Below, piece by piece: positions 3,185 to 22,264 of a stretch of DNA of 64,000 bases. The number at the start of each line of letters is the position of its first letter. The first letter of the stretch is position 1. The position numbers and the translations under genes were made by a program. The notes beneath the pieces are model-generated. The model was not told the DNA's origin. It saw only the letters and a program-made list of their open reading frames with translations, and did no database searches. Source of the DNA: Streptomyces sp. NBC_01244 (GTDB lineage: Bacteria > Actinomycetota > Actinomycetes > Streptomycetales > Streptomycetaceae); NCBI RefSeq assembly GCF_035987325.1, contig NZ_CP108490.1, positions 62,001 to 126,000 on the forward strand, in the 5' to 3' direction.

Positions 3185-3216
3185 CACCTGATGGTGGCAG
3201 TGGGATCAGGCTCCCG

Positions 3217-4568: not shown

Positions 4569-4647
4569 TTGCCAACCCACCCCCAGTCAGGTAGATTAGT
4601 ACTTGTCGGAACGGGGAGGGCAAACCCCGGGACGGACACCACGAACC
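4569..4647 (+). promoter_or_regulatory. repeated promoter + structured leader, copy 1
   Basis: -35 TTGCCA (4569-4574), 17-bp spacer, -10 TAGATT (4592-4597). The predicted start is about 4605, at the GTCGG that opens the conserved leader. The leader folds as arms CGGGG/CCCCG around loop AGGGCAAA, followed by a GGACACCACGAACC block. It drives the DUF932 operon. The same unit occurs ten times between 4.5 and 17.4 kb. Confidence 0.85.
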
Positions 4648-4668
4648 AGCCTCACACAGGAGCGCATC

Positions 4669-5853
4669 ATGGCTATCGAGACCGCCGAGCAGTTCACCCG
4701 CCGCGCCGCCGTCGTCATCCCGACCGACGCAGCGTCGAGCGCGCGCAACGCCGACCTCTCCGACCTCGCGCAGATCCTCCAGCGCCAGCAGAACGCCAAG
4801 ATCGACATGGTGGCCCCCGCGTCCGCGCTCACCGTCCAGGGCGGCAACGTCACCGTCCAGGGCCTCCCCCCGATCCTCACCGACACCGGCGTGACCATGG
4901 CGGACGGCACCTACCGGCCCACCACCGTCGCGGACGAGGGCATTGCCGCCAAGCTCGGAATCCCGCTCGCCTACCTGCGCCGCATGCGCGCCGACAAGGT
5001 GGACCTGTACGACGCCAACGTCATGGGGTGGCTCGCCGAGGACCCCTCCCGCAAGTTCCTCCTGCGAGGATTCACCGGCGAGCAGGGCGGCGAAGGCATC
5101 CTGCGCGCGTTCCTGTCCGACAGCTACAAGCGGATCGACAACTTCGATGTCCTGATGGCCGCGCTGAGCGGCGTGAAGGAGTCCGGCCACGAGGTCAAGA
5201 TCACCGGATGCGACCTCACCGAGCGCCGCATGATCGTCCGCGTCGAGTCCGAGCACATCAAGGTTCTCGCCCCCGCGCTCCTGCGCGGCTACCGCTCGCC
5301 CTTCACCGGCCAGAGCGGGGACGAACTCCCGATCGTGTCCGCCGGATTCGTCATCGCCAACAGCGAGGTCGGCGCCGGAGCGTTCACCATCACCCCCCGC
5401 ATCACCGTCAAGGTGTGCGAGAACGGCATGACCATCCAGAAGGACGCCCTGCGCGCCGTCCACCTCGGCGCCAAGCTGGACGAGGGTGTCATCCGGTGGT
5501 CGGGCGACACCGAGACGAAGAACCTGGAGCTGATCACCGCCCAGGCCCGCGACGCCGTGACCACCTTCCTTGACCGCGACTACGTCGAGGCCAAGCTCAC
5601 CGCCATCGAGAAGGAGGCGGGGCGCCAGATCACCGACCCCGTCAAGACAGTCGAGGTCGTTTCGAAGAAGCTCAAGTTCACCGACAGCCTTCGCGAGTCG
5701 ATCATGGGCCACTTCATTCGCGGCGGACAGACCACGGCGGGCGGCCTCATGCAGGCCATCACCGCCACCGCGCAGACCCTGGACGACGCCGACGCCGCGT
5801 TCGAACTCGAAGGCCAGGCCCTCACCGCCATGAGCCTCGCGGCCAACGCGTAA
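4669..5853 (+). CDS. DUF932 (phage/plasmid-type) protein
   Basis: 394 residues from ATG 4669, behind AGGAG at the end of the conserved leader. The layout is that of DUF932 proteins: an N-terminal region with IPLAYLRRMRADKVDLYDANVMGWL, a central LLRGFTGE...RAFLSDSYKRIDNFDVL block and a beta-rich part ending MTIQKDALRAVHLGAKLDEGVIRWS. DUF932 proteins are common on conjugative plasmids and phages near replication or antirestriction genes; their biochemistry is poorly known. As first gene of the first repeated-promoter unit it probably acts early after entry. Family call is firm, function open. Confidence 0.8.
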   Translation: MAIETAEQFTRRAAVVIPTDAASSARNADLSDLAQILQRQQNAKIDMVAPASALTVQGGNVTVQGLPPILTDTGVTMADGTYRPTTVADEGIAAKLGIPLAYLRRMRADKVDLYDANVMGWLAEDPSRKFLLRGFTGEQGGEGILRAFLSDSYKRIDNFDVLMAALSGVKESGHEVKITGCDLTERRMIVRVESEHIKVLAPALLRGYRSPFTGQSGDELPIVSAGFVIANSEVGAGAFTITPRITVKVCENGMTIQKDALRAVHLGAKLDEGVIRWSGDTETKNLELITAQARDAVTTFLDRDYVEAKLTAIEKEAGRQITDPVKTVEVVSKKLKFTDSLRESIMGHFIRGGQTTAGGLMQAITATAQTLDDADAAFELEGQALTAMSLAANA

Positions 5854-5971
5854 CCCCGGACCGCCGCTCCCCGGGGCCAGCACCACCACCCCGGCCCCGG
5901 GGAGCGGCACCCCGGCCCGCCCGGACCTCTCCCCCGGGCGGGCCAGGCCCCCGGGGACGGGCCGCGAGCGC

Positions 5972-5988
5972 GGCGGCATCGAGCCGCC
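5972..5988. repeat. ATCGA-loop hairpin, copy A
   Basis: Perfect inverted repeat GGCGGC-ATCGA-GCCGCC in the gap after the DUF932 gene, followed by a CGCGCACACCCC tail. Related hairpins with different stems but the same ATCGA loop occur at 6466, 15004 and 15143. Confidence 0.65.
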
Positions 5989-6081
5989 CCGCCCGCGCAC
6001 ACCCCCCGATCCCCGCCGTCGGCCCCAACCACCGCGCCGCACGCCGCGAACACCCCCGCGACCCGAACGAAGGGCACCGCC

Positions 6082-6399
6082 ATGCAGGCCACCGCCACCC
6101 GCCCCCAGCCCACCGAGACCGCCCCGCCCGCCGCGCGTCCCGGCACGTGGTGGCTTGTCGTCACCCAGTCCGGCACCCACATGCTCACGCTCTGCCCCGC
6201 CACCTCCTACGCCCCCGTCAGCGTCTACGAGAACGGCTACCTCGTCACCATCCGCGCCCGGGAGATGTGCACCCCCGCCGAGCGCCCCGACGTCCGCCTC
6301 GAAGTCCGCCCCGACTACAGCGCGTACGAGGCCTCCTGCCACATCCCCGCCGACCACCCCGCCCACCGCGCGGTAATGCGCCACATGAAAACGCTCTGA
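6082..6399 (+). CDS. hypothetical protein, 105 aa
   Basis: Second gene behind promoter copy 1, ATG 6082 after GAACGAAGGG. The first ~20 residues are Ala/Thr/Pro-rich; the rest forms one small folded-looking domain (TWWLVVTQSGTHMLTLC, YENGYLVTIRARE, ending HRAVMRHMKTL). No family recognised. Position suggests it belongs to the early-entry set. Confidence 0.55.
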   Translation: MQATATRPQPTETAPPAARPGTWWLVVTQSGTHMLTLCPATSYAPVSVYENGYLVTIRAREMCTPAERPDVRLEVRPDYSAYEASCHIPADHPAHRAVMRHMKTL

Positions 6400-6465
6400 C
6401 GCCAGCCCGGGGCGGGGTGCTCCCCCCGCCCCGGAAGAGCCGGCCCGGTGGGCGACCGCGATCCC

Positions 6466-6482
6466 GGCGGCATCGAGCCGCC
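6466..6482. repeat. ATCGA-loop hairpin, copy B
   Basis: GGCGGC-ATCGA-GCCGCC in the 164-bp gap between two small genes, preceded by GGCGACCGCGA as in copy C at 15004. Too weak a U-tract follows to call it a simple terminator. Confidence 0.65.
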
Positions 6483-6563
6483 GCGCTCGCGCGCGCCCAA
6501 GCCCCGGCCGGCCCACCGCCGCACGGCGGCCGCCGCCCACCTCCCCGAAAGGCCCGAACCGTC

Positions 6564-6860
6564 ATGCCCACCCTGACAGCCGTCGACCCGCCCAGCTGCG
6601 CGTGCACGGAATGCATCACCGGCCAGTACGTACCTCTCGACCGCGCCATGCCCCGGGACATCGCCGCCATGCTCAGCGGCCGGCTGGACAACCACACCGG
6701 GGCCGCGCTCCGCGTCACCCTCGTCTACGCCCTCAGCCCCGGAGGGAGCCTCACCACCGCCGTACCGGACACCGTCCGCGTCGACTTCCAGAACTTCTCC
6801 TGGGATCTCGAACCCTGGCACGCCCACACCGCCTCCGCCTCACCGCCGGGCGACTCGTGA
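6564..6860 (+). CDS. hypothetical protein, 98 aa
   Basis: ATG 6564 follows a GAAAGG. The N-terminus has SCACTECITG, a Cys-x-Cys-x2-Cys cluster that may bind metal; the remainder is beta-rich (RVTLVYAL, VRVDFQNFSWDLEPWH). No family recognised. Its stop overlaps the next start (GTGA), so the two are probably translated in series. Confidence 0.5.
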   Translation: MPTLTAVDPPSCACTECITGQYVPLDRAMPRDIAAMLSGRLDNHTGAALRVTLVYALSPGGSLTTAVPDTVRVDFQNFSWDLEPWHAHTASASPPGDS

Positions 6861-7042
6861 ACTCCGCTGCCACCCCCTCCGCGTGCCGCTGGTGCGGCAT
6901 CCCGGCACGCGACCACTTCCAGCAGTGGAAGCCCCCCGTCGGCTGGCACAAGTACGCCCTCCCCACCACCGAGCAGATCAAGGCCCGGATGCGTGAACGG
7001 CGCCGAGCACGCAGCCCGAAGCCGCCCGCGCACGCCTCCTGA
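6857..7042 (+). CDS. small Cys/His protein, 61 aa
   Basis: Starts at GTG 6857 inside the previous stop region (GTGA overlap), a strong sign of translational coupling. Residues 9-20 read CRWCGIPARDHF, a Cys-x2-Cys ... His pattern suggestive of a mini zinc ribbon; the C-terminus is Arg-rich (MRERRRARSPKPP), consistent with nucleic-acid binding. No family recognised. Confidence 0.45.
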   Translation: MNSAATPSACRWCGIPARDHFQQWKPPVGWHKYALPTTEQIKARMRERRRARSPKPPAHAS

Positions 7043-7157
7043 CCTCCGAGAGGTCGGGCGCGGTCTCCCGCCCCACTCGGGCCCGCCACCCCGGACCGTC
7101 GCCCCCGGATCCGGAGCAACACCCACCGAACCCCCTGGACCCCACCCGAAGGACACC

Positions 7158-7799
7158 GTGACCATCACCGCCCCGAACACCCCGCCCGCGCACGCCGAGC
7201 AGCACCTCGGCTCGTACGGACTCCTGCGCATGGACATCACCACCGACCTCGCCGACGCCTCCACCACCTACCGGCTCCGCGGACCCCACGTCACCGGCAG
7301 CGTCGTTCTCTCACCAGGGACCACCCTGTCCGACCCCACCGATCCGGACCGCTCCTGGTCACCCGACCTGCACATCCTCTTCGGGACCGCCCCCATCACC
7401 CCCGCCCACCGGCGCGCAGACCCCCTCACCGTCAACGGAATCGAACTCGCCCGCAGCTCCCGCGTGTTCTTCGCGCACCTCGACGCCGGCTCCCCCGCGC
7501 CCACCTCACGGCGGGACAAGAACACCAACACGGTCCCCCTGCCACCCGCCACCCGCCGGCACGCCCAGGCCGTACTCGCCGCTGTCGTCGCCCACTGGCG
7601 CGCCAGCCCCGACCGCGAGGCCCTCGAAGACGCAGGACGCAAGATCGCCGCCGTCTACTGGCTCGCCAGGTACAGCAAGGACCTGCACCAGCTGGACCAG
7701 ACCCTCACCGAGACCCGGGCCGCCCGGGACAGGACCTCCCGACGGGCCGAGGACCTCCGCGCCCACCTCGCCAGCACAGAGCGCCCGGCCGCGGCGTAA
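7158..7799 (+). CDS. hypothetical protein with C-terminal coiled coil, 213 aa
   Basis: Last gene behind promoter copy 1. Start GTG 7158 after GAAGGACACC. The first ~110 residues are beta-rich with no recognised motif. From about residue 120, an Ala/Arg/Glu-rich helical part (HAQAVLAAVVAHWRASPDREALEDAGRKIAAVYWLARY...LDQTLTETRAARDRTSRRAEDLRAHL) looks like a coiled coil. No family assigned; co-transcription with the DUF932 gene is inferred from spacing and the lack of another promoter copy. Confidence 0.5.
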   Translation: MTITAPNTPPAHAEQHLGSYGLLRMDITTDLADASTTYRLRGPHVTGSVVLSPGTTLSDPTDPDRSWSPDLHILFGTAPITPAHRRADPLTVNGIELARSSRVFFAHLDAGSPAPTSRRDKNTNTVPLPPATRRHAQAVLAAVVAHWRASPDREALEDAGRKIAAVYWLARYSKDLHQLDQTLTETRAARDRTSRRAEDLRAHLASTERPAAA

Positions 7800-8354
7800 C
7801 CAGCACGAGCACCACCCCGCCCCGCGCTCCCGAGGCCCCAGCTCCTCCGGCGCGGGGCCCCGGAGTGCGCACCGAACCGGCCAGGTACCGCGCCGGATCG
7901 CGGCCGACCCGCCGCGGTACCCCTCTCCGAAGCGACAAGAGCCGGTGCTGCGCACCGGAAGGAGCCCGGCTGCGCCGGGCGCTGCTCACCCCGACACCGA
8001 CCTGCGCTTCGCTCCGGCCGGCACCGGGGTCTTCCTCCATCCCCGGCTTTCTGATTGTGGGCGCGGGAGCCTGCCCCTCAAGCGCTCCAGTCCGTGTCCT
8101 CGCCGGCCCGCTCCTACGTCGCTATACCGCCTGCGGTACTCCTTCCCGCGCTTGACCGCCAGACCCCCGCGCCCTGGTACTGCCTTTACCGGGGCGGGAG
8201 AAAGAAAGGTCTGCGGCCACCTGCACGTCCACGCCACGGCCGCACACCGGCTGACGGGCCGACCGGGGCGAACACTGCGCAAGGACACGCGGACGCTGCG
8301 CGCCCGCCAGCCCGGCACGGGGCCGAGCCAGCACGGAAACCGACCCGCCCAGGG
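7800..8354. other. gene-free spacer
   Basis: 555 bases without a convincing gene: frames present lack codon bias, starts with ribosome sites, or recognisable products. It contains several short G/C-rich inverted repeats but no repeat shared with the rest of the region. Confidence 0.4.
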
Positions 8355-8432
8355 TTGCGAAAAACCACCCGGACGACTAGAATAGTAAACGTCGGAACGG
8401 GGAGGGCAAACCCCGGGCCGGACATCACGAAC
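8355..8432 (+). promoter_or_regulatory. repeated promoter + structured leader, copy 2
   Basis: -35 TTGCGA (8355-8360), 17-bp spacer, -10 TAGAAT (8378-8383), leader from GTCGG at 8391 with CGGGG/CCCCG arms. Here the base before GTCGG makes ACG, so a peptide starting at this point is not conserved. Confidence 0.85.
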
Positions 8433-8452
8433 GCCGAGCCGAGGAGACCCCC

Positions 8453-8851
8453 GTGACCACCACCCGCCCGGACAAGACCGCCTCCAGCGCCACCACTACG
8501 CCCGTCACGGGAACCCTTCGGGCCGACCGGACCGAGGTGAACAGCATCTACGACGACGCGGGGCGCAGCGTCGTGCGGTACTTCACCTACGTGCGCCGCG
8601 ACTACTTCCTTGCCGGGGCCCCCGACATCCGTGGGGCGGGGCGCCGCTACCCCTTCCACCCCACCGGCACCTCCCTCTCTTGGGCCCGTATGAACACCGA
8701 CGCGTGGGAGCTGCGCAGCGTCAACGTCAGCGGGGTCCGCGTGCTCAAGTCCGGCGCGCCGGGCGCGGAGGTCCCGCACCTCATGCTGCTCATGCGCGAA
8801 GTGCCGCAGTGGCTGCTGTCCTTCGCCGAGGCGAACCGCCCCACGGACTGA
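8453..8851 (+). CDS. hypothetical protein, 132 aa
   Basis: Single gene behind promoter copy 2. Start GTG 8453 after GAGGAGACCCCC. After a Thr/Ala-rich first 20 residues the protein looks like one compact domain with many aromatics (SIYDDAGRSVVRYFTYVRRDYF, WARMNTDAWELRSVNVSGVRVL, EVPHLMLLMREVPQWLLSF). No family recognised. Being the only gene of its unit, it must carry that unit's function alone. Confidence 0.55.
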   Translation: MTTTRPDKTASSATTTPVTGTLRADRTEVNSIYDDAGRSVVRYFTYVRRDYFLAGAPDIRGAGRRYPFHPTGTSLSWARMNTDAWELRSVNVSGVRVLKSGAPGAEVPHLMLLMREVPQWLLSFAEANRPTD

Positions 8852-8855
8852 GCAA

Positions 8856-8892
8856 ATCCGGGGCGGGGGAGGTTGACTCCCCCGCCCCGGAT
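8856..8892. terminator. 15-bp perfect hairpin with the next -35 in its loop
   Basis: Arms 8856-8870 (ATCCGGGGCGGGGGA) and 8878-8892 pair perfectly around the loop GGTTGAC. It starts four bases after the preceding stop, so it is probably that gene's terminator; yet the loop contains the -35 TTGACT of promoter copy 3. Confidence 0.7.
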
Positions 8893-8952
8893 AGGTAGAA
8901 TAGTAAATGTCGGAACGGGGAGGGCAAACCCCGGGCCGGACACCACGGACCA
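8873..8952 (+). promoter_or_regulatory. repeated promoter + structured leader, copy 3
   Basis: -35 TTGACT (8873-8878), 17-bp spacer, -10 TAGAAT (8896-8901), leader from 8909. It heads the unit containing ardA. Confidence 0.85.
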
Positions 8953-8970
8953 CCGAGCCCAGGAGTCACC

Positions 8971-9240
8971 ATGGTCGCCGTCATGACCGAGGCCCCGCCC
9001 GTCCTCATCACCCCGCAGCCGGCCTGCGACCCGATCCAGTGCGACCGGTGCGGCGCACGCTCCGGCTTCCCGGACGACGGCGACGAGGGCGCCTGGGCCG
9101 CCCATGACCACGGCTGGCACGTCGCCACCTTCACCCGCGACTCCTGCAACTGCCCCCACCTGTGCGCCGACTGCGCGCACGACTGGTGCGGAGAGACCGA
9201 CGACAGCCCGCGCCTTATCGGAATGCGCGTCATCGGATAA
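8971..9240 (+). CDS. Cys-rich small protein, 89 aa
   Basis: ATG 8971 after CCAGGAG. Contains CDRCGARSGF and later CNCPHLCADCAHDWC; together with nearby His residues this could bind one or two zinc ions. No family recognised. It precedes ardA in the same unit, so a role in establishment or anti-defence is a reasonable but untested guess. Confidence 0.55.
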   Translation: MVAVMTEAPPVLITPQPACDPIQCDRCGARSGFPDDGDEGAWAAHDHGWHVATFTRDSCNCPHLCADCAHDWCGETDDSPRLIGMRVIG

Positions 9241-9315
9241 CCCCTCCCGGGCGGCCCCCACCGGGCCGCCCGGCCCCGCCCCGCACCGGCACGCAAAGGC
9301 AAGGACACGAACCCC

Positions 9316-9852
9316 ATGAACGCAATCTATGTCGCCTCTCTCTCCGACTACAACGCCGGACGACTCCATGGAAAGTGGATAAACATCGGCGATGACGCCG
9401 AGGCCGTATACGGAGAGATTACCGGCATTCTCGAAACGTCCCCGCAGGGAGATGCGGAAGAATACGCGATCCACAGCTTTGAGGGGTTCGGCGGTATCAA
9501 TATTGCCGAGACGGAGGAAATCGAAGACCTTATACTCATTGCCGAAGTGCTGGACAAATTTCCTTCCGATGTTGTCAAGCACATTTATGAAACGTGTGAC
9601 GCTGAACACCTTTCGGAAAAGTGTCAGGAAAAGTACATCCGGACAACTGAATTCAACGTCAGTCCCGAATCGGCCGTAGCTGAGTACGCGCTCGACTACC
9701 TCACCGACCACGGCACCGATGGGGTTCCGCAACTGTGGCTGGACCACATCGAGGCCGTCGCGGAGTCGCTCGCCGTCCACATGATCAACAGCGGCAGTGT
9801 GATCCCGCTCTATGCCGGAGCGGGCACCTATCACCTTGTGCGAGGAAACTGA
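9316..9852 (+). CDS. ardA: ArdA-type antirestriction protein
   Basis: 178 residues, close to the usual ArdA length. The N-terminal IYVASLSDYNAGRLHGKWI and the block AEEYAIHSFEGFGGINIAETEEIEDLI match the conserved ArdA pattern of acidic, DNA-mimicking proteins that inhibit type I restriction enzymes. The protein is strongly acidic. Codon use and G+C are clearly lower than the neighbours up to about position 9660, suggesting later acquisition. ArdA genes typically sit in plasmid leading regions and are made immediately on entry, which fits the surrounding repeated promoters. Confidence 0.85.
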   Translation: MNAIYVASLSDYNAGRLHGKWINIGDDAEAVYGEITGILETSPQGDAEEYAIHSFEGFGGINIAETEEIEDLILIAEVLDKFPSDVVKHIYETCDAEHLSEKCQEKYIRTTEFNVSPESAVAEYALDYLTDHGTDGVPQLWLDHIEAVAESLAVHMINSGSVIPLYAGAGTYHLVRGN

Positions 9853-9853
9853 A

Positions 9854-10323
9854 ATGACATACGGAACCCCTCACCCGCTGCACCTTTACCGTGCCCACGT
9901 GCCCGACGCCGAATACGCCGAGCACCTGCGGAAACTCGCCGACGCGGCATTCGCGGAACGGGCAGCCGAGCAGAAGAGCCTGCGTGCCGTCCTCCGCGCC
10001 GACGGCGACGTGTACGGCATAGGCCCGCTCGCACTCGCCCAGGAGAAGGCCAGGAGAAGGCCAGGATATGGCGCAAGGTCCGCGCGAGGGCCGCAGGACA
10101 CCCGGAAATGGAAGGCCAGGCCGCAGGAGCCGTATTCACACCGACCGACGACAAGTTGATAGAAGAGGTCCGCAGGATGCGCGCGGAACTTCGCAACCAC
10201 GAGGAATACGGAACCGAGTACGAAGAATGGGAAGCAGCCCGCCTATTTCTCTCCCTCACCGCGTTTCTCGATTCCCCGGAAGAAAGCGCCGGGCGAGTTG
10301 ACACCCACGCGAATGTTAGGTAG
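9854..10323 (+). pseudogene. small gene disrupted by an 11-bp tandem duplication
   Basis: ATG 9854 follows the ardA stop by two bases. The frame reads a sensible protein (YRAHVPDAEYAEHLRKLADAAF...GPLALAQEKAR) up to ~10050. It then runs into Arg/Pro-rich shadow sequence and stops at 10159. A second frame continues with ARIWRKVRARAAGHPEMEGQ...LFLSLTAFLDSPEESAG to the TAG at 10321-10323. Removing one of the two copies of GGAGAAGGCCA (10042-10063) joins both into one ~150-residue protein. Either a pseudogene or a reversible on/off switch; the stop coincides with the next -10 box. Confidence 0.75.
10042..10063. repeat. 11-bp tandem duplication causing the frameshift
   Basis: GGAGAAGGCCA at 10042-10052 and again at 10053-10063. 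Eleven is not a multiple of three, so gain or loss of one unit toggles the reading frame. Confidence 0.85.
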
Positions 10324-10376
10324 ATTAGTACTTGTCGGAACGGGGAGGGCAAACCCCGGGCCGGACACCGCGAACC
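10298..10376 (+). promoter_or_regulatory. repeated promoter + structured leader, copy 4
   Basis: -35 TTGACA (10298-10303), 17-bp spacer, -10 TAGATT (10321-10326), leader from 10334. The first three bases of the -10 are also the stop codon of the upstream frame. Confidence 0.85.
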
Positions 10377-10393
10377 GAACCGAGGAGACGCAC

Positions 10394-10684
10394 ATGCCCA
10401 CCGTGATGCTGACCGCCGCCGACCAGCTCGACACGATCCGCGAACTGGCCCACGAGCTGTACGCCGGACGCGCCGAGACCGTCGACCGGGCCGGGTTCGG
10501 GTACTACCGGGCCGACGAGTACGCCTACGGGTCCGAGTTCTGCGCCCCCACCCGGGTGGCCCTGGACAGCATCGCGGCGACCAAGCTGCGCCATGAACTC
10601 GCCCTCCACGTCGCCGAGTACGCCGAGGACCCCGAGGCGGACCCCGACCAGGTCATGGACCAGGGCGAGACGGTCCGCCTGTAG
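10394..10684 (+). CDS. hypothetical protein, 96 aa
   Basis: ATG 10394 after CGAGGAG. Helix-rich, acidic protein (LDTIRELAHELYAGRAETVDRAG, ATKLRHELALHVAEYAEDPEADPDQVMDQ). No family recognised. First gene of the unit behind promoter copy 4; its acidity (many Asp/Glu) resembles, without proving, DNA-mimic anti-defence proteins. Confidence 0.5.
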   Translation: MPTVMLTAADQLDTIRELAHELYAGRAETVDRAGFGYYRADEYAYGSEFCAPTRVALDSIAATKLRHELALHVAEYAEDPEADPDQVMDQGETVRL

Positions 10685-10787
10685 CCCTCCCGCTCCCCGC
10701 GCCCGCCACGGGCGCGGGGAGCCCCTCCACCGGCCAGGGGACCCCGGCCGGCCTCCAGGCCCGACCGCGACCCAGAACGGACCCCCA

Positions 10788-10976
10788 GTGCCCAGCCAGA
10801 GCCCCGCAGACCCGCAGGCGGACCTGCTCGCCCGCGCCGCCGCAGGCGACCGCGCCGCCCAGGCCCGGTTCACCGCCGCCCGCACCGCCCGCGTACAGGC
10901 CCGCGAGTCCTTCACCGCCAGCGGCCGCGCCGCCGCCCGCCGGATGCTCCGCCCCGAGGGAGTGACCGCACGATGA
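10788..10976 (+). CDS. small helical protein, 62 aa
   Basis: GTG 10788; nearly all Ala/Arg/Gln-rich helix (DPQADLLARAAAGDRAAQARFTAARTARVQARESFTASGRAAARRML). The stop overlaps the next start (ATGA at 10973), supporting real translation. No family recognised. Confidence 0.45.
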   Translation: MPSQSPADPQADLLARAAAGDRAAQARFTAARTARVQARESFTASGRAAARRMLRPEGVTAR

Positions 10977-11443
10977 CCACCACCGCCCCCACGCCGCCCA
11001 TGCCCGACCCGTACTCCGACCCCGCCGGGTATCTCGTCGCCCGCTGCTCCCAGCTCCATCAGGCCAACACGGAACTCGCCGGAGCCTTCCTCTACTCCGC
11101 CGCGCCCACCATTCGGGCCATCTGCCCCACGGCCGCGCGCGTGATCTTCGACCGCACCGCCAACGACGCCGACCCCCGTCAGCCGGTCACCTTCCTGCGC
11201 ATCGAGGACGCGTACGGTTCGGAACTCGCCACCCGCGAGGACGCCGACACCCTCAACCAGCAGGACCAAGCACTACTGCGCCAGGCCCTCGGCGAGGCCT
11301 ACGCCGCCGTACTCCACTGGAACGCCGGAGCCACCCCCGGGCCCCGCCCGTGGAGCGTGGAGAGCACCTACGGCTTCCAGGACGGGGCCGCGCCGCCGTT
11401 CCTGAGCACCGTCACCCTTCCCCCGGCCCGGCCCGCGAGTTGA
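10973..11443 (+). CDS. hypothetical protein, 156 aa
   Basis: ATG 10973 overlaps the preceding stop. After a Pro-rich start the protein has a regular domain (LVARCSQLHQANTELAGAFLYSAAPTIRAICPTAARVIFD, VTFLRIEDAYGSELA, LNQQDQALLRQALGEAYAAVLHW). No family recognised. Its TGA stop (11441-11443) lies inside the -35 box of promoter copy 5, so the next unit is packed directly against it. Confidence 0.5.
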   Translation: MTTTAPTPPMPDPYSDPAGYLVARCSQLHQANTELAGAFLYSAAPTIRAICPTAARVIFDRTANDADPRQPVTFLRIEDAYGSELATREDADTLNQQDQALLRQALGEAYAAVLHWNAGATPGPRPWSVESTYGFQDGAAPPFLSTVTLPPARPAS

Positions 11444-11518
11444 CGCACTCCACCGAGCGAAGTAGACTAGTCAATGTCGGAACGGGGAGGGCAAGCCCCG
11501 AGCCGGACACCACGAACC
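11440..11518 (+). promoter_or_regulatory. repeated promoter + structured leader, copy 5
   Basis: -35 TTGACG (11440-11445), 17-bp spacer, -10 TAGACT (11463-11468), leader from 11476 with CGGGG/CCCCG arms and loop AGGGCAAG. Confidence 0.85.
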
Positions 11519-11540
11519 ATCGAGACGAGGAACCGTTCCC

Positions 11541-12023
11541 ATGGGATACACCCACTCCTTCGCCTACACGCCCCAGGCCGAGACCTTCCGCAGCAACTGG
11601 CTCCAGCTGCGCCTGGACGCGGCGGCCGTCGTGGACTTCGCCAAGAAGTCGGGCGTGGCGCTGGCCGGGCCGGACGGCACCGGCGCCCCGGTGATCAGCG
11701 AAGACCTGATCGCCTTCAACGGACGCGGTGACGGCGCCTGCGAACACTTCCGCCTGGAGCTCACCCCCCGCCGCCTCTCGCAGTCCGGCCCGTTCGTCTG
11801 GAGCTTCACCAAAACCGCAGGCCTCCCCTACGACATGGCCGTCACCGCCGTGCTCCTGCGCGCACACACCCTGATGCCCGAGGTCTTCGCCATCAACAGC
11901 AACGGCGACTGGAACGAGGACTGGCAAGAGGCCCGCGCCATCCACCAGGCCCTTTTCGGCGACCCGGGTACCGCCGACCCGCTCACGGACACCACCGTCG
12001 GACCCGCAGCCGTCCGCAGCTGA
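11541..12023 (+). CDS. MGYTH-type hypothetical protein, 160 aa
   Basis: ATG 11541 after GAGGAACCGTTCCC. It opens with MGYTHSFAY and has a later EHFRLELT...FVWSFTKTAGLPYDMAVTAVLL; I recall similar MGYTHY-starting proteins from phage and plasmid genomes, with unknown function. It is a single compact domain without a signal or membrane segment. It heads the unit behind promoter copy 5. Confidence 0.55.
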   Translation: MGYTHSFAYTPQAETFRSNWLQLRLDAAAVVDFAKKSGVALAGPDGTGAPVISEDLIAFNGRGDGACEHFRLELTPRRLSQSGPFVWSFTKTAGLPYDMAVTAVLLRAHTLMPEVFAINSNGDWNEDWQEARAIHQALFGDPGTADPLTDTTVGPAAVRS

Positions 12024-12244
12024 CCCATCGCCCGTCCGGGGTCCGCGCCCGCAGCCGCGCGGACCCCGGACGGTGGCCGGCCCCAGCGCGCCGACTCCAG
12101 CGACCACACCACCGCCCGGCGGCCGGCCGTTCGCGTCCAGGCCGTTCGGCGACGGCACCGCCGCCCCGACGCGGCCCGGCACGCACCTTCAATCCCTTCG
12201 CCCCGCCCGCCGACAAGGGCCCTTACGGCAACCCCGAGGTCTTC

Positions 12245-12769
12245 ATGAGCATCACCATGTCCGAAGCGAGCGCCACCACCCTCCGTATGGCGGTCGAGTC
12301 CGCGAAGGCCGCCGCGGCGGCAACCGCCCACACCGCGGCCATGATCATGATCGAGGCGGGCGGCGGCCAGGGCAGCATCCACTGCGCGTGGAGGGGCGAA
12401 GGCCCCGACGCACTGTGCCTGATCACCGCCACCTCCTTCAGCGGCCACGTCATCGCCGGGTCGCACGGCGACCGCGTCCAGATCACCCTTCCCGGCCTCA
12501 CCCCGGCCGCGTACGAGCAGATGCGCACCTGGTCCCAGGACCGCAACGAGTGCCATCACGAGCACGACTGCGACTGCCTGACGGACCCGTGGCCCACGCT
12601 CGCCACCCTCTCCGGGGACGACGAAGAGCACGACATCGACTACCGCGACGACCCCGAGTACGCGCGCGGGAGCGCCCGCCTGGCGTTCGGGCGCGTCACA
12701 GTCAAGCTCGACGACGAGCCCGTGACCGTGGCGGACACCCTGATCCGAATCTCCCGCCACCACGCCTGA
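12245..12769 (+). CDS. hypothetical acidic protein, 174 aa
   Basis: ATG 12245 follows CCCCGAGGTCTTC (weak ribosome site) 221 bases after the previous gene. N-terminal Ala-rich helix, then a beta-rich domain with a Cys/His cluster (NECHHEHDCDCLTDPW) and an acidic stretch (SGDDEEHDIDYRDDPEYA). No family recognised. No new promoter copy lies between it and the MGYTH gene, so they are probably co-transcribed. Confidence 0.5.
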   Translation: MSITMSEASATTLRMAVESAKAAAAATAHTAAMIMIEAGGGQGSIHCAWRGEGPDALCLITATSFSGHVIAGSHGDRVQITLPGLTPAAYEQMRTWSQDRNECHHEHDCDCLTDPWPTLATLSGDDEEHDIDYRDDPEYARGSARLAFGRVTVKLDDEPVTVADTLIRISRHHA

Positions 12770-12823
12770 TACGGCCAGGAGGCCGACCGGCCCGCCGTCC
12801 ACCTGCTAAAGCGGGATGGGGAG

Positions 12824-12901
12824 TTGACACCCACCCCCCATAGGGTAGACTAGTCCATGTCGGAACAGGGAGGGCAAGCCCTGGGTCGGCCACCGCGAAC
12901 C
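12824..12901 (+). promoter_or_regulatory. repeated promoter + structured leader, copy 6 (compensatory variant)
   Basis: -35 TTGACA (12824-12829), 16-bp spacer, -10 TAGACT (12846-12851). The leader stem reads CAGGG/CCCTG instead of CGGGG/CCCCG: both sides changed together, keeping the pair. This is direct evidence that the stem matters. Confidence 0.85.
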
Positions 12902-12923
12902 AGTGCCGCAACGAGGAGCACCA

Positions 12924-13334
12924 ATGGCCAGGACCACCGATCGAGCCGCCCGCGACCGCAAGTTCTTCGAGGACCGCCTGAAGACCGCCGCCGAGGCCGG
13001 CCGCAAGGACGCCCATCGTTACGCGAACGACTGGTGGGACCGCCTGCACGAGGAGCGGCTGAGCGCGGAGAACGTCCGGATGGACGGCTTCTTCGAGCAC
13101 ATCACCGGCTACCAGTTCCAGATCCAGTTGTGGACCGACCTCATAGAGGCCCTGGCCGTCAGCCGGGATGCCGTCGCGACGTGGCATGAGCAGATGGCGA
13201 AGGCCGAGGGGAACTCCACCCCGACCGGAGGGACGATGGGCAACCCCGTCGCCGACGCCCGGCGGCACCTTTGGCGCGACGCGAACGGGAAGTTCGCCCA
13301 CTACGCCGCCGACCTCTTCCGCCGCGTCAGCTGA
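12924..13334 (+). CDS. hypothetical helical protein, 136 aa
   Basis: ATG 12924 after GAGGAGCACCA. Mostly charged helix (RKFFEDRLKTAAEAGRKDAHRYANDWWDRLHEERL, FQIQLWTDLIEALAVSRDAVATWHEQMAKAE), with a C-terminal HLWRDANGKFAHYAADLFRR. No family recognised. Sole gene of its unit. Confidence 0.5.
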   Translation: MARTTDRAARDRKFFEDRLKTAAEAGRKDAHRYANDWWDRLHEERLSAENVRMDGFFEHITGYQFQIQLWTDLIEALAVSRDAVATWHEQMAKAEGNSTPTGGTMGNPVADARRHLWRDANGKFAHYAADLFRRVS

Positions 13335-13376
13335 CCCACTCCGCCCCCGGGTCCGGCAGGCGGTTCCCGTCGGACC

Positions 13377-13400
13377 CGGGCGGGGTTGACACCCCGCCCG
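13377..13400. terminator. 9-bp perfect hairpin with TTGACA as loop
   Basis: CGGGCGGGG / CCCCGCCCG arms pair perfectly around exactly TTGACA, the -35 of promoter copy 7. As at 8856-8892, a terminator-like hairpin presents the -35 hexamer in its loop. Confidence 0.65.
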
Positions 13401-13463
13401 CATGAAGTAGAATAGTAAATGTCGGAACGGGGAGGGCAGGCCCCGGGTCGGACACCGCGAACC
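13386..13463 (+). promoter_or_regulatory. repeated promoter + structured leader, copy 7
   Basis: -35 TTGACA (13386-13391), 16-bp spacer, -10 TAGAAT (13408-13413), leader from 13421; stem CGGGG/CCCCG, loop AGGGCAGG. Confidence 0.85.
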
Positions 13464-13483
13464 ACCGAGCGAGACGAGGGAAC

Positions 13484-13768
13484 ATGTCCACCGCCACCGC
13501 AGCCCGCCCCACCGTCGGACCGCGCATCCTCCAGACCTCCAGCGAGAGCGTCTACGCCGAGCCGAGCGAGACCCACGTCCGCAACATCGGCGGGACCTTC
13601 TACCGCTTCCACCGGTGGGAGTACCGCTCCGGCGACACCTTCGTCGACGTGTCCGTCCCCGACGAGGCCACCCTCGCGATGATCGACATCTTCCCCGACT
13701 TCGCCGACATGCCCGCGCACTTCGGATGGACCCTCAAGCGCCAGTTCGCGAGCTACATGTTCGACTGA
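13484..13768 (+). CDS. hypothetical protein, 94 aa
   Basis: ATG 13484 after GACGAGGGAAC. One small aromatic-rich domain (GGTFYRFHRWEYRSGDTFVDVSVPDEATLAMIDIFPDFADMP, ending LKRQFASYMFD). No family recognised. First gene behind promoter copy 7. Confidence 0.55.
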   Translation: MSTATAARPTVGPRILQTSSESVYAEPSETHVRNIGGTFYRFHRWEYRSGDTFVDVSVPDEATLAMIDIFPDFADMPAHFGWTLKRQFASYMFD

Positions 13769-13878
13769 CCCGCCCGCCGGGGCCGCGCCACCGCAGCCCC
13801 GGCCCGAAGGCCCCCGCACGGCACGCGGCCGGGCCCGCCCGCACGCCCAAGCCGGCCAGCACACCGCAGCGAGGAACG

Positions 13879-14334
13879 ATGCCCACACCCACCGACCCCC
13901 ACGACGGCGAACACCCCGCGCCCCCGCCCGCGTACCCGAAGAGCGCCGCGCAGCTCACCGCCACCGACTTCACCCACTGCCGCATCGGCATTGAACACCG
14001 GCCCGCCCGGTCCGCCTACTACTGGCGACTTGAGCTCTTCACCGGCGAGGCCGGCCACTCGTTCACCAAGACGACCCGCGCGCGGATCTCCGAGCACACC
14101 GACCCCCTCCCCGTCGCACACGACGAACTGGCCGCACTCGGCCTGGAGATCGACCCCTCCCACGAACGCGGCCCGCTCAGCACCTACCGCGTACGCCCCG
14201 CCGCCAAGGGCCCGGCAGGAAGGCCCCGCCCCGCGCCAGGCACCAGGGAGGCTCCGCGCCCATCGGCCCCGGGCGCCGAGATCCGCCCGCCCGCGCACGC
14301 CGGGGAGGTTGACACCCACACCCCGGTTGAGTAG
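13879..14334 (+). CDS. hypothetical protein, 151 aa
   Basis: ATG 13879 after GAGGAAC. The folded part is residues ~25-110 (ATDFTHCRIGIEHRPARSAYYWRLELFTGEAGHSFTKTT, ELAALGLEIDP). The last ~45 residues are Pro/Arg-rich and read through the -35 of promoter copy 8. The TAG stop (14332-14334) is the start of that promoter's -10. No family recognised. Confidence 0.5.
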   Translation: MPTPTDPHDGEHPAPPPAYPKSAAQLTATDFTHCRIGIEHRPARSAYYWRLELFTGEAGHSFTKTTRARISEHTDPLPVAHDELAALGLEIDPSHERGPLSTYRVRPAAKGPAGRPRPAPGTREAPRPSAPGAEIRPPAHAGEVDTHTPVE

Positions 14335-14388
14335 AATAGTAAATGTCGAGAAGGGGAGGGCAAGCCCCGGACCGGCCGCCACAGAACC
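14309..14388 (+). promoter_or_regulatory. repeated promoter + structured leader, copy 8 (ssb promoter)
   Basis: -35 TTGACA (14309-14314), 17-bp spacer, -10 TAGAAT (14332-14337). The leader starts GTCGAG at 14345, diverged just before the stem, but keeps GGGG/CCCC and loop AGGGCAAG. Confidence 0.8.
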
Positions 14389-14408
14389 ACACACGAGGAG
14401 ACACTCCC

Positions 14409-14885
14409 ATGGCAGGCGAGACCACCATCACCCTGATCGGCAACCTGGTCGACGACCCGGAGCTGCGCTTCACCCCCAACGGGGCCGGAGTCGCCAAGTT
14501 CCGTGTCGCCTCCACCCCCCGCGTCTTCAACAAGACCACCAACGAGTGGACGGACGGCGAAAGCCTCTTCCTGACCTGCTCCGTCTGGCGCCACGTCGCC
14601 GAGAACGTCGCCGAGTCCCTCACCAAGGGCATGCGTGTCATCGTCACCGGCCGACTGCGCCAGCGCACCTTCGAGACCAACGAGGGCGAGAAGCGCACCG
14701 TCTACGAACTCGACGTCGAGGAAGTCGGCCCGAGCCTGCGCAACGCGACCGCGAAGGTCGCCAAGGTCCAGCGCAACAACGACAACCAGCAGGGCGGCTG
14801 GGGCCAGCAGGCCCCGCAGCAGCGCACCGCGCCGACGGCCGACGCCTGGGCCGCCGCCCCCACCGACGAGAACCCTCCCTTCTAG
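14409..14885 (+). CDS. ssb: single-stranded DNA-binding protein
   Basis: 158 residues from ATG 14409, behind ACGAGGAG. Residues 1-110 are a standard OB-fold SSB ([75 protein letters not shown]). A Gln/Gly-rich linker follows, then the acidic tip DENPPF that recruits replication and repair partners. Plasmid-borne ssb genes in leading regions coat the incoming strand and dampen the SOS response. It has its own copy of the repeated promoter, which ties the repeat to the transfer process. Confidence 0.95.
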
Positions 14886-15003
14886 CCCGTCCGCCGGTGC
14901 CGCGCCCGTACGGCGCGGCACCAGGCCCGCGGACCACGGGATCGCGACCGCCAGGGGCGAGGGCTGAACAGCCACCAGTCCCGCCGCTCGGCGACCGCAG
15001 CCC

Positions 15004-15022
15004 GGCCGGCATCGAGCCGGCC
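15004..15022. repeat. ATCGA-loop hairpin, copy C
   Basis: GGCCGGC-ATCGA-GCCGGCC: both arms differ from copies A and B in a way that preserves pairing, while the loop is unchanged. Preceded by GGCGACCGCAG. Confidence 0.65.
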
Positions 15023-15142
15023 CGGCTGCGCCCGCGCCGACAGACCGGAGCGGGCCGCGGCCGTACGCCCCGCCACCGCTCCCCCGGGCTGCGGCGCGCG
15101 GCCGCCCGGAGCTCACGGCCCCCGCCGCGCAGCCAGACCGCC

Positions 15143-15219
15143 CTGGGGGCGGCATCGAGCCGCCCCCAGCGCGCACACCCCCTCTGCATCGAGCCGCCCC
15201 CAGCGCGCACACCCCCTCT
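15143..15219. repeat. ATCGA-loop hairpin, copy D, with 34-bp tandem repeat
   Basis: CTGGGGGCGGC (15143-15153) and its complement (15159-15169) form an 11-bp perfect stem around ATCGA. The right half plus its CGCGCACACCCC tail is then duplicated: 15152-15185 equals 15186-15219. Confidence 0.75.
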
Positions 15220-15275
15220 GCCTCGCGCCGTCACCAAGGGTGCGGCGCCACCGAACCCCAGAACGAAGGCCCCAC

Positions 15276-15557
15276 GTGAAGAAGACCCCGGTCGGCATCC
15301 GGTTCACCACCGGCTGCGGACACTCCTGGAAACGCCCGCACGCCCGCTGGAGCGCCGCCGACCTCCGCGGAGCTGTGGCCGACTGCCGCGTCTGCGACGA
15401 GTACCTCCTGATCGTCATCCCCGACGACGTGCCCGCCGACCGGGTACCTGCCGACGTGCACTGCCCCCGCTTCCACCCCTACCTCGCCCAGCTGACCAAC
15501 GGCGACTGGCCCGCGGACGGCGCCGGCACCTTCGCCGCGGCGTTCGACGCGCACTGA
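15276..15557 (+). CDS. hypothetical Cys-containing protein, 93 aa
   Basis: GTG 15276 (VKKTPVGIRF). The sequence TTGCGHSWKRPHARW and DCRVCDEYLLIVIP give Cys-x-His and Cys-x2-Cys pairs ~30 residues apart, compatible with a zinc site. Acidic C-terminus. No family recognised; second gene of the ssb unit. Confidence 0.5.
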   Translation: MKKTPVGIRFTTGCGHSWKRPHARWSAADLRGAVADCRVCDEYLLIVIPDDVPADRVPADVHCPRFHPYLAQLTNGDWPADGAGTFAAAFDAH

Positions 15558-15601
15558 CCCTCCCCGGCCTCCGACCCGACTTGCCCACGGAGCAGCACCC
15601 G

Positions 15602-16084
15602 ATGAACCGCACCCCCGAAGCCCAGGCCACCGCCGCCTTCCTCGCCGAACTCCTCGGCCACGCGCCGGCCTGGCTGCCCCAGGTCGACAACTGGGAGCTC
15701 TTCCGTGAAGACGACGGCCGCTACTCCCTGAGCGGCGCCATCACCCCCGGCACCCGCCCGGTCGCCGACCTCCTGCGGGGTGCCGCGGACGCCAACGGCG
15801 GCTCGTACGAGGAAGGCCGCGCCTCCTTCGCCCGGTTCACCCTCGAAGGCCGCGACATCACGCTCTACCACCACGCACCCCCGGCCCACCGGCCGGCGCC
15901 CAGCTGCACGACCTGCGGGAGCTCCCTCACGGGCCCCTGCGTACCTCTCGTGTGGATCGGGACCGTGCCGCAGGCCATCTGCGTACCCTGCCGCGACCGG
16001 ATGCACCACGACTTCCTCACGGCGAACAAGCCGGAGGCCCTCGCGGTCCGGAAGGAGTTGACCACCCATCCCCACGTGAGGTAG
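15602..16084 (+). CDS. hypothetical protein with C-terminal zinc ribbon, 160 aa
   Basis: ATG 15602 after CACGGAGCAGCACCCG. An N-terminal helical part (AQATAAFLAELLGHAPAWLPQVDNWELF) and a beta-rich middle are followed by SCTTCGSSLTGPC...AICVPCRDRMHHDF, two Cys-x2-Cys pairs typical of a zinc ribbon. Its TAG stop (16082-16084) is part of the -10 of promoter copy 9. No family recognised. Confidence 0.55.
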   Translation: MNRTPEAQATAAFLAELLGHAPAWLPQVDNWELFREDDGRYSLSGAITPGTRPVADLLRGAADANGGSYEEGRASFARFTLEGRDITLYHHAPPAHRPAPSCTTCGSSLTGPCVPLVWIGTVPQAICVPCRDRMHHDFLTANKPEALAVRKELTTHPHVR

Positions 16085-16138
16085 ATTAGTACTTGTCGGA
16101 ACGGGGAGGGCAAGCCTCGGGCCGGACACCACACACCA
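16058..16138 (+). promoter_or_regulatory. repeated promoter + structured leader, copy 9
   Basis: -35 TTGACC (16058-16063), 18-bp spacer, -10 TAGATT (16082-16087), leader from 16095. One stem base is changed so that CGGGG pairs with CCTCG through a G-U wobble. Confidence 0.8.
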
Positions 16139-16220
16139 CCCGCACCACGAGAGCCGCTGCACCAGCAGCTCTCCCGCCCGCAACAGCGGCCCGGAGGTGC
16201 CCGTCAGGAAGGAAGTCGCC

Positions 16221-16724
16221 GTGACCGCCACCACCATCAACGGGGTCCAGGTTCTCGAGTCCGAAGCCATCGAGGCCCCGATCAGCACCCCCGACCGGCG
16301 CGTCTACTTCAAGCAGATCCGACGACTCCTCCTGGCCGACGGCGCCGAACACTACGGCTGCATCCACTGCCCCTTCACCTCCCCCAAGATCGGACTGGTG
16401 CGCACCCACCTCAAGGAACACCGCACCAGGGACACCACCCCCGCCACACCGCCGAAGTCCCCGAAGCCTTCGAAGGCCAAGCCCTCCCCGACCCCGGCGA
16501 AGACGGACCCCCTGCACGTCTCCACCATCTCCGTCGCCTCCCTCTCCTCCCTCAACCTCGGCGAACTCGTCGAACGGGCCCAGGCCACGAACCAGGCCGT
16601 CAAGCAGCGCGACCTCGCCAGGAAGGAACGCGACGCCGCCCGCGAGGCCCTCACCTCCTGGATGGACCGGGCCAAGCAGGCCGAACACAAGCTCTCCGAA
16701 GTCCAGCGGGCGCTCCAGCCGTAG
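16221..16724 (+). CDS. C2H2 zinc-finger protein, 167 aa
   Basis: GTG 16221 sits five bases after GGAAGGAAG. Residues C47, C50, H63 and H67 form a classical C-x2-C-x12-H-x3-H finger (YGCIHCPFTSPKIGLVRTHLKEH). A Pro/Lys/Ser linker (residues ~70-100) leads to a C-terminal coiled coil (LGELVERAQATNQAVKQRDLARKERDAAREAL...KLSEVQRAL). Likely a dimeric nucleic-acid-binding protein. C2H2 fingers are uncommon in bacteria outside the Ros/MucR family, which this does not otherwise resemble. Confidence 0.6.
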   Translation: MTATTINGVQVLESEAIEAPISTPDRRVYFKQIRRLLLADGAEHYGCIHCPFTSPKIGLVRTHLKEHRTRDTTPATPPKSPKPSKAKPSPTPAKTDPLHVSTISVASLSSLNLGELVERAQATNQAVKQRDLARKERDAAREALTSWMDRAKQAEHKLSEVQRALQP

Positions 16725-16791
16725 ACCCACCCCACGCGTCGCCCGCGCAGCCGGGCGGCGCCCACCCCGCCGTACCACCAGGAGCCCCACC

Positions 16792-17349
16792 ATGTCCGAA
16801 CGCGCCGTCATCGACTGGCTCGACCCCAACGGCCGCCCCGAGGCCCGCCTGTACTCCCGCTGGTCACCCCCCGCCCAGCAGATCCCCGCGCTCGCCGACT
16901 TCATCGCCGCCCATCCCCACCCCGACGCCTGCGGCCTCGCCGACTACCGCGCCTGGGTCACCGAACACGCGCCCCACCTGATCACCGCCGTCACCGCGCC
17001 CACCGCCCCCGAACCCGCAGCCGCCATCGCCTACCGGTACACCGTCCAGACCAACCCCCTGCGCATCGTCGCGCAGACCTACCGCCACGAACGCTGGGAG
17101 ACCTCCACCACCACCGGATCCCCCGGTGAACTCTTCGCGGCCGCCGCCCAACTCCTGGCCGCCCAGGCCCTGCGGGTGCGCGCCCTCACCGAAGCCTTCC
17201 CCCGCCCGCCTTACGCCGCCCACCTCGCCAGCCCCCACGCCCTGGAAGCCGCAGCCGTCCGGCACGAAGCCAACGCGGCGGCCGCCGGCTGGTGGCCCGA
17301 CGAACACCCCGACCACGCCCCGCTTGACCCCACTCACTCCGAACAGTAA
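16792..17349 (+). CDS. hypothetical protein, 185 aa
   Basis: ATG 16792 after CCAGGAGCCCCACC. Regular mixed domain (VIDWLDPNGRPEARLYSRW, AYRYTVQTNPLRIVAQTYRHERWET, LFAAAAQLLAAQALRVRALTEAFP). The TAA stop (17347-17349) is also the start of the -10 of promoter copy 10. No family recognised. Confidence 0.5.
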   Translation: MSERAVIDWLDPNGRPEARLYSRWSPPAQQIPALADFIAAHPHPDACGLADYRAWVTEHAPHLITAVTAPTAPEPAAAIAYRYTVQTNPLRIVAQTYRHERWETSTTTGSPGELFAAAAQLLAAQALRVRALTEAFPRPPYAAHLASPHALEAAAVRHEANAAAAGWWPDEHPDHAPLDPTHSEQ

Positions 17350-17400
17350 TTTAGTACACGTCGGCGATGGGAGGGTAAACCCGGACCCGCCACCACGACC
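17324..17400 (+). promoter_or_regulatory. repeated promoter + structured leader, copy 10 (most diverged)
   Basis: -35 TTGACC (17324-17329), 17-bp spacer, -10 TAATTT (17347-17352), leader from GTCGG at 17360. Stem reduced to TGGG/CCCG (one wobble) with loop AGGGTAAA, yet position and loop are kept. Confidence 0.75.
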
Positions 17401-17421
17401 ACCAGAACAGGACAAGCCGAC

Positions 17422-17862: not shown

Positions 17863-17959
17863 CCCGCCACCCCAGCCCACGGTCCCCAAGACCCCCACGG
17901 CCAACCTGAGGAGCACCGCCCACGACCACCACACACCATCAGGCGCAGCCGACGACGGA

Positions 17960-21963: not shown

Positions 21964-22264
21964 TTCCCCAGCGCTACACCGTCACTGCCAAATCCCTGCG
22001 CGTCCCACTGACACCGTCCTGGTCTTCAAACCGCTCACCCCTCCCGCCGATCCTCTACCTCCCCCTTCACTGTCACCTCACTGATCCTCCTTCTCTGACC
22101 ACCTCTTCACCTCACTGACCTCTACCTTCCAACTCACACAGTTCTTCCTTCACACCATCTCTCACGTGCTCATTCTCCAATCATCGAGATCTTTTCAAGA
22201 TCATCTAGTCACACCATGTGCATTACCTTTGGCATATGCCATCCGGCTGTCTAAGATCACCTCT
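21964..22264. other. pyrimidine-rich gene-free region, candidate oriT
   Basis: Composition changes abruptly: from ~22000 to 22180 the plus strand is almost all C and T with very few G, and overall G+C falls well below the flanks. It contains direct repeats TCACCTCACTGAYC (22073-22086 and 22107-22120, 34 bp apart) and the inverted repeat GATCTT-TTC-AAGATC (22188-22202). It directly precedes the MobF relaxase gene, where oriT commonly lies in this class. The nick site cannot be assigned from sequence alone. Confidence 0.5.
22231..22240. promoter_or_regulatory. palindrome GGCATATGCC upstream of relaxase
   Basis: Perfect 10-bp palindrome about 25 bases before the leader-peptide start, close to a possible -10 (TAAGAT, 22252-22257). 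Candidate operator for relaxase autoregulation. Confidence 0.4.

Follow-up and report, generated by a model that had tools for sequence, protein, structure and literature searches.

The 64,000-nucleotide window analysed here, C3:62001-126000 of Streptomyces sp. NBC_01244, carries ten copies of a short element that combines a promoter with a 5' leader, each of them before genes on its own strand. The home genome measures 10.0 Mb in three contigs. Contig C3 (187,536 bases) is probably a plasmid, because genes for a MOBF relaxase and a type IV coupling protein are found on it; its two ends share no overlap, and its topology may be linear or circular.

All ten copies listed by the initial annotation were found where it had placed them, and each has the promoter form that it described: a TTG-type -35, a spacer of 16-18 bp and a TAGnnT -10, which reads TAATTT in copy 10. 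In every copy the -10 is followed by seven bases and then by GTCG and a hairpin, and mean column identity among the ten is 79% over 89 columns. All lie on the plus strand. Element 1 (4569..4650) has the -35 TTGCCA, the -10 TAGATT and a leader from 4605, and precedes a DUF932-type gene. Elements 2 (8355..8436), 4 (10298..10379) and 5 (11440..11521) lie before genes of unknown function, at 8453, at 10394 and 10973, and at 11541 and 12245, respectively. Element 3 (8873..8954), with a 16-bp inverted repeat across its -35, precedes a gene for a protein of 89 amino acids and ardA, while element 8 (14309..14391) precedes ssb. Element 6 (12824..12904), whose leader stem CAGGG/CCCTG is a compensated variant, and element 7 (13386..13466), with a 10-bp inverted repeat across its -35, stand before genes at 12924 and 13484. 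Element 9 (16058..16139) precedes a gene at 16197 or 16221 with one sub-threshold zinc-finger match, and element 10 (17324..17403), the most divergent of the ten, a gene at 17422.

The block is larger than the 13 kb first assigned to it. A profile built from the ten copies matched 23 places on C3, all on the plus strand (E 2.6e-23 to 1.2e-4), and the copies span about 67 kb, from C3:12704 to C3:79402. Four promoter copies and one leader-only copy lie at 12.7-20.7 kb and 18 copies at 48.0-79.4 kb, which makes 22 copies with a promoter. The leader-only copy, at C3:14531, keeps the hairpin and sits between two genes, with no -10 and no recognisable promoter. The roughly 27 kb between 20.7 and 48 kb is free of elements and divides the block in two; it may be a later insertion or mark a functional boundary. 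Within the window, a search with a model of the leader (R2) returned exactly the ten copies already listed. Throughout the home genome every match fell on C3, both with blastn from one copy (18 of 18) and among the scored candidates of R2 (19 of 19) and of an 82-position model of the element, R1 (11 of 11).

Placement and strand were examined with a rough gene caller written for this analysis. In 20 of the 22 promoter copies the -35 lies 92-105 bases before the predicted start codon, and in the other two 163 and 175 bases. The element-bearing stretches of C3 contain 57 predicted genes on the plus strand and three on the minus strand. The whole of C3 from 12.7 to 81 kb has 71 and 14, respectively, as compared with 63 and 53 on the rest of the contig.

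The genes behind the elements include ssb and the ardA unit, as first reported, among otherwise unrelated genes. Pfam supports both the ArdA antirestriction protein (9316..9852, plus strand; PF07275, E 1.1e-20) and the plasmid SSB (14409..14885, plus strand; PF00436, E 3.9e-30). The DUF932-domain protein (4669..5853, plus strand) takes its name from the source names of close homologues and has no Pfam match of its own. Above the Pfam cut-off, 17 of the 19 window block proteins scanned had no match. Among 30 further block proteins there was one match each to the Mom, Gp3-like, subtilase, HTH_17, VWA and MerR families. The genes for a ParB-N domain protein and for the protein that matches Mom lie in the C3 block outside the window. 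The ParB-N family, present in 9 of 21 gene-called element loci, is shared more widely than any other. Similar genes are contained in F plasmid leading regions.

A second repeat family occurs among these genes, at 5951-6002, 6445-6496, 14984-15035 and 15127-15219 of the window. Its members form hairpins with GGCGGCATCGAGCC cores, which are perhaps terminators, and they include an exact 34-base tandem duplication at 15152-15219.

Distribution and subfamilies

The initial annotation had named occurrence in related plasmids as a test of its proposal, and genome scans with R1 and R2 found such occurrences. R1 matched 23 of 392 Streptomyces genomes at E <= 1e-4, the home genome included; at the same threshold, R2 matched 35 of 297 Streptomycetaceae genomes, spread over 5 of 17 genera. 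In a sample of the whole class, six of 394 genomes matched at E <= 1e-3, all of them from the home genus, one of 137 genera. Because the filters were strict and each genome had few candidates scored, these counts are lower bounds; genome G187, for instance, was missed by the R1 scan, yet showed two clear elements when its locus was read.

Against plasmid records, blastn with one element gave three matches, all in Streptomyces. An 18-19-base leader pattern occurred in 62 stretches of genome contigs, 41 of which belong to Streptomyces or Streptacidiphilus; the other 21 were single matches in other bacteria, archaea and metagenome-assembled genomes, and we read them, tentatively, as chance. A phage origin was considered and rejected: blastn of one element against phage records found nothing, nor did either of two exact patterns occur in viral contigs.

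We pooled 97 copies, the 22 home copies and 75 others at E <= 0.1, of which the weakest may be chance matches. Twelve of the 97, in which no leader begins where it should, were excluded from leader parsing; three without full flanks were left out of the duplex-energy test discussed below. Grouped by eye, the copies fall into six lineage-specific subfamilies (F1-F6) with a common hairpin region and differing -10 sequences, namely TAGAAT-like, TAAATT, TAATCT/TATTCT, TAGATT and TTTAAT forms. In F2, 8 of 11 copies have a box GACGCGTAAA that adjoins the -35 on its upstream side. In F6, a second hairpin with the core GCGGAGGGCAACCC follows downstream in 7 of 38 copies.

Some loci in other genomes have an unusual arrangement. 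On the 9.6-Mb contig G069:C1 an element lies 729 bases from one end (locus L053, 729-815) and a copy of equal score near the opposite end, as if in a terminal inverted repeat. Contig G820:C18 has five same-strand elements about 6.4 kb apart, which suggests a tandem unit or an assembly concatemer. At L047, an F2 element and its first gene are followed, at 2087-4518 and without a change of strand, by genes for a terpene synthase and a cytochrome P450.

The leader hairpin

In 28 sequences chosen from four of the six subfamilies, the leader folds into GUCGG, an internal loop of two purines, a stem of four or five pairs that are mostly G-C, a loop and the closing CCGAC. Along the sequence, a G-rich stem is followed by the loop AGGGCAAN, a C-rich side, GA or GG, and CCGAC, with a bulged G in most home copies. 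On its 3' side come a C/A-rich stretch and then a Shine-Dalgarno-like site.

The stems covary. In an alignment (A5) of these 28 sequences, from F1, F2, F3 and F6, with F4 and F5 left out, 91.1% of 270 cells are paired, although the sequences were hand-picked for clear leaders and the percentage is therefore flattering; in seven cells both sides have changed. None of 500 shuffles reached the covariation score of A5 or its percentage paired, and when the partner was shifted by one, two or three columns, pairing fell to 28-59%. Shuffle statistics of this kind take no account of relatedness, and the polarity of wobble pairs was therefore examined too. The 21 non-home rows of A5 contain nine G.U, no A.C and 16 other mismatches, and the inner stem of the 22 home copies contains six G.U and no A.C. 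At the second outer pair of F6, TA occurs 14 times, TG 11, CG three and CA three (31 distinct leaders parsed, of 38 F6 copies). The hairpin is probably selected on the sense strand, and in use as RNA, because selection on the template strand would give the reversed wobble bias. A double-stranded operator within the leader is disfavoured, since the stems covary.

The leader had been described as no recognised RNA, and Rfam agrees: no match reached the gathering score in the 64-kb window. A lax search of window positions 4300-18100 and three related loci gave no match on the sense strand of a leader, only sub-threshold ones; one to CC3552 overlaps element 7 on the minus strand (E 0.54).

What the leader does may be viewed in several ways. 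Hairpins at the extreme 5' end are a plain mRNA-stability design. The elements might then be ordinary constitutive promoters with a stabilising hairpin, duplicated without any control specific to a regulon. The good -35 and -10 matches and the greatest likeness (judged by eye) among copies of one plasmid are in line with this, but it leaves unexplained that several subfamilies conserve the loop in addition to a plain stem, that subfamily-specific sequence around the -10 or before the -35 extends beyond the need of a bare promoter, and that the geometry toward the relaxase gene (see below) is strict. We regard this explanation as rather unlikely.

Alternatively, the leader could be the regulatory part: a plasmid or host factor would bind the nascent hairpin and control elongation or translation in an antitermination-like manner, behind a constitutive promoter. 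The subfamilies share the hairpin region while their -10 sequences differ, the copy at C3:14531 is a leader alone between two genes, and some F6 copies have a second hairpin, all of which would suit such control. Yet a terminator or anti-Shine-Dalgarno helix was not demonstrated, no RNA-binding protein was identified and F4 retains the inner stem only, so that we consider leader-based control possible rather than probable. With similar reserve, and equally tentatively, the leader may represent a new class of cis-acting RNA in Streptomycetaceae conjugative elements. In that case, an element-encoded factor would set a burst of expression in the recipient through the RNA, and the promoters would have diverged with lineage-specific regulators while the hairpin was kept.

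Orientation toward the relaxase gene

Where a TrwC relaxase gene is close by, the tabulated elements keep one orientation toward it, which strengthens the tie to conjugation proposed in the initial annotation. In the window, this gene (22333..27333, plus strand) encodes a MOBF (TrwC) relaxase of 1666 amino acids with an AAA_30 domain (PF08751, E 6.2e-65), and a TraG/TraD-type coupling protein is encoded at 35129..36586 on the minus strand (PF02534, E 1.6e-30). In 23 of 23 tabulated contigs with a nearby TrwC, all 89 elements lie upstream of the relaxase gene and on its strand, and the nearest element is 5.0-19.8 kb away. In 13 of these contigs the mobF frames have 1480-1509 codons and are relatives, so that the independent cases are fewer; the distinct types are at least the home contig, G095/G141, G875/G908/G872 and F6. 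The table omits element contigs without a TrwC match, G355 and G069, the contigs with a PF03432 relaxase, G199:C2, and the G915 copies at 49.6-58.6 kb, which fit the geometry only if that contig is circular. Among the PF03432 contigs, G266 and G195 agree with the geometry and G167 disagrees; G376 agrees by its own open reading frame, though a separate relaxase scan did not list it. Right after the home relaxase gene, at 27936-28556, lies a gene for an AAA_33 / zeta-toxin-like / chloramphenicol-phosphotransferase-like kinase.

In MOBF systems the transferred strand has a hairpin with the nic site on its 3' side, and the F plasmid is reportedly nicked within GGTGTG, before the last G. In the window, a putative nic region GCACATGGTGTG (22210..22221, minus strand) resembles GCAAGAGGTGT, which is found on the minus strand shortly upstream of mobF in seven other loci; its 11-base core occurs seven times in 1.39 Mb of fetched loci. 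A comparison of the DNA before mobF on the home contig with that of four distant genomes gave no convincing common block, and nearer relatives were then used. Eight aligned F6-type loci share a 23-base hairpin with GTATCGTCAC-type arms, about 100 bases or less before mobF, and in one locus both arms are altered compensatorily. Directly 3' of this hairpin, the minus-strand sequence CTTGGTCCT is identical in eight of eight loci, with less conservation beyond. If these candidate nic sites are real, the minus strand is transferred, the element block enters first, and the minus strand is the template for the element-driven genes. The candidate sites and the tabulated geometry agree on this polarity.

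Such a polarity is also expected if the elements are single-stranded-DNA promoters of the Frpo/ssi kind, where the entering transferred strand (T-strand) folds into a promoter that mimics duplex DNA and is transcribed before the second strand is made. The position on the leading side of the putative origin of transfer (oriT), the T-strand as template, and ssb and ardA in the block would all fit. We compared DNA duplex energies between core and flank in 94 of the 97 copies with partner swaps drawn from all subfamilies. In the home copies, pairing of the -35/-10 core with the DNA upstream of it is a little stronger than with the upstream DNA of other copies (mean z about -1), and in 3 of the 22 (C3 60634, 70873 and 75386) the -35 is crossed by an inverted repeat of 10-16 bp. 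However, the cores of F3 and F6, the two largest subfamilies apart from the home one, have no excess complementarity to their flanks on either strand or side (mean z -0.36 to +0.16), and the small subfamilies F2, F4 and F5 reach -1.0 at most. Moreover, in the long inverted repeats the -35 falls within the loop or next to it, and the conserved hairpin follows the promoter and has a wobble bias that fits the sense strand rather than the T-strand. Inverted repeats across the -35 show no excess in other subfamilies; they are perhaps terminators of upstream genes. As a general design, a single-stranded promoter is rejected, since core-flank pairing is no better than in swaps in F3 and F6, and we consider this explanation improbable for the family.

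A putative establishment regulon

We think it likely, though well short of certain, that this Streptomyces conjugative plasmid has an establishment (leading-region) regulon and that the elements are its shared promoter and 5'-leader cassettes. The observations behind this reading are the sequence family, the hairpin covariation, the strand bias, the relaxase geometry and the co-occurrence of the elements with the gene of a candidate regulator (see below). One coordinated regulon had already been proposed in the initial annotation, and near-identical, same-strand promoters with a leader before unrelated genes do imply a co-regulated set. Establishment-type content, with ssb, ardA, DUF932, ParB-N and Mom, appears to support this, and the cassettes probably switch on settling-in and anti-defence genes together.

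What goes beyond them is inference: that C3 is a plasmid, that the promoters are active, where transcription starts, the nic site, the timing, the repression and what the leader does. Each element would be a sigma-70 (HrdB)-type promoter with a predicted transcript start at or near GTCGG, such that the mRNA would begin with a two-tier hairpin. The block would lie on the leading side of the putative oriT, its genes pointing to oriT and the relaxase gene, with the transferred strand as template. In the plasmid-bearing cell the genes would be held down; in the recipient, a burst would follow once the strand has been copied to duplex, as the DNA is transferred but the regulator is not, by the logic known from Bacillus p576. 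The hairpin would act in the RNA, most likely as a binding site or to stabilise the 5' end. The favoured design would thus combine duplex promoters of the sigma-70 type, a leader that functions as RNA, and lineage-specific control, because core-flank pairing is weak or absent and the leader stems covary.

In our literature search, which left most subscription papers outside, no establishment regulon or leading-region promoter family was found described for Streptomyces or other actinobacteria. The start-associated sequences of cluster K mycobacteriophages are likewise short repeats in an actinobacterial mobile genome, and reportedly precede many genes at the Shine-Dalgarno site; the present elements, in contrast, consist of a promoter and a 5'-terminal hairpin. 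The closest described system is EGeRS2 of Bacillus p576 and clade II pLS20-family plasmids (PMC8708921). There, a sigma-70-type promoter stands before several establishment operons, including one with an anti-restriction gene, and is shut by a repressor that is not transferred with the DNA (PMC8708921). The same promoter region before several operons, the anti-restriction gene and the variable gene content are common to both systems. However, p576 has four copies as compared with 22-23 on C3, and the present elements add a conserved 5' RNA hairpin. EGeRS2 also has a dual heptamer TTATCCCnnTTATCCC next to the -35, bound by a ribbon-helix-helix (RHH) repressor (PMC8708921). Neither this dual heptamer, even with one mismatch allowed in each half, nor an exact single heptamer occurred in any of the 97 copies, on both strands of the 60 bases upstream and 100 bases onward, and no RHH family member was found among the 19 window and 30 further block proteins scanned, which are part of the block genes.

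Other systems differ more. EGeRS1 of pLS20 is likewise repeated, structured (with multiple inverted repeats) and located directly upstream of a ribosome-binding site and of establishment operons, but it measures 420-751 bp, its authors detected no promoter, and the transferred strand is reported as the non-template strand (PMC8708921). The present elements measure about 85 bp, have a clear -35 and -10, and the transferred strand would be the template. The Frpo/ssi promoters of F-like and ColIb-like plasmids agree in ssb and anti-restriction genes and, probably, in leading-region location and T-strand orientation (PMC11541004), whereas the present -35/-10 core has no general self-complementarity.

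A candidate regulator is encoded near the relaxase end of the block (18068..18943, plus strand), a protein of 291 amino acids with several sub-threshold helix-turn-helix (HTH) matches in Pfam. Homologues of this multi-HTH protein occur in 6 of 392 Streptomyces genomes, home included. Five of these are among the 23 element-bearing genomes of the R1 scan, and the sixth is G187, where elements are present when the locus is read. In G284 the gene lies on C2, a contig with elements and without a TrwC match, and the protein is therefore linked to the elements rather than to the relaxase. It may be the regulator for the home subfamily. An inverted repeat, CGCGGTGTTCCCGTAC-ACAG-GTACGGGAACACCGCG (window 17960-17995), separates the HTH gene from the last gene driven by an element.

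Several observations speak against an establishment regulon of this kind. Genomes with F3 or F6 elements gave no sign of the multi-HTH protein, which can therefore be the regulator for some subfamilies at most. Of the hairpin, F4 leaders form just the inner stem; several copies of F2, and others of low score, depart from the modelled fold; and the leader-only copy at C3:14531 is ill-suited to a pure promoter cassette. An unanchored automatic stem parse gave 23 A.C against 3 G.U in the inner stem of F6; this parse was rejected, as it ran into the loop and counted the loop-closing A and C, and column-anchored counts were used instead. Elements occur without any TrwC in G376, G202, G227, G183, G167 and G195, while TrwC lies on another contig in G284 and millions of bases off in G355 and G069. 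The elements of G284:C2 are on both strands (seven minus, four plus), those of G199:C2 are on the same strand but fit the geometry only if the contig is circular, and the G167 element is downstream of its PF03432 relaxase in a linear reading. Also, two plasmids with the closest mobF had no R2 match in the sequence searched (45.0 of the 281.9 kb of NZ_CP109080.1 and all of NZ_CP108407.1).

With an establishment regulon as our preferred reading, the element serves as a sequence tag for probable leading-region genes of Streptomycetaceae. The neighbours of ArdA, SSB and Mom would be good candidates for new anti-defence proteins. More generally, the elements may offer a way into how single-strand-transferring elements of high-GC Gram-positive bacteria activate their genes in a new cell.

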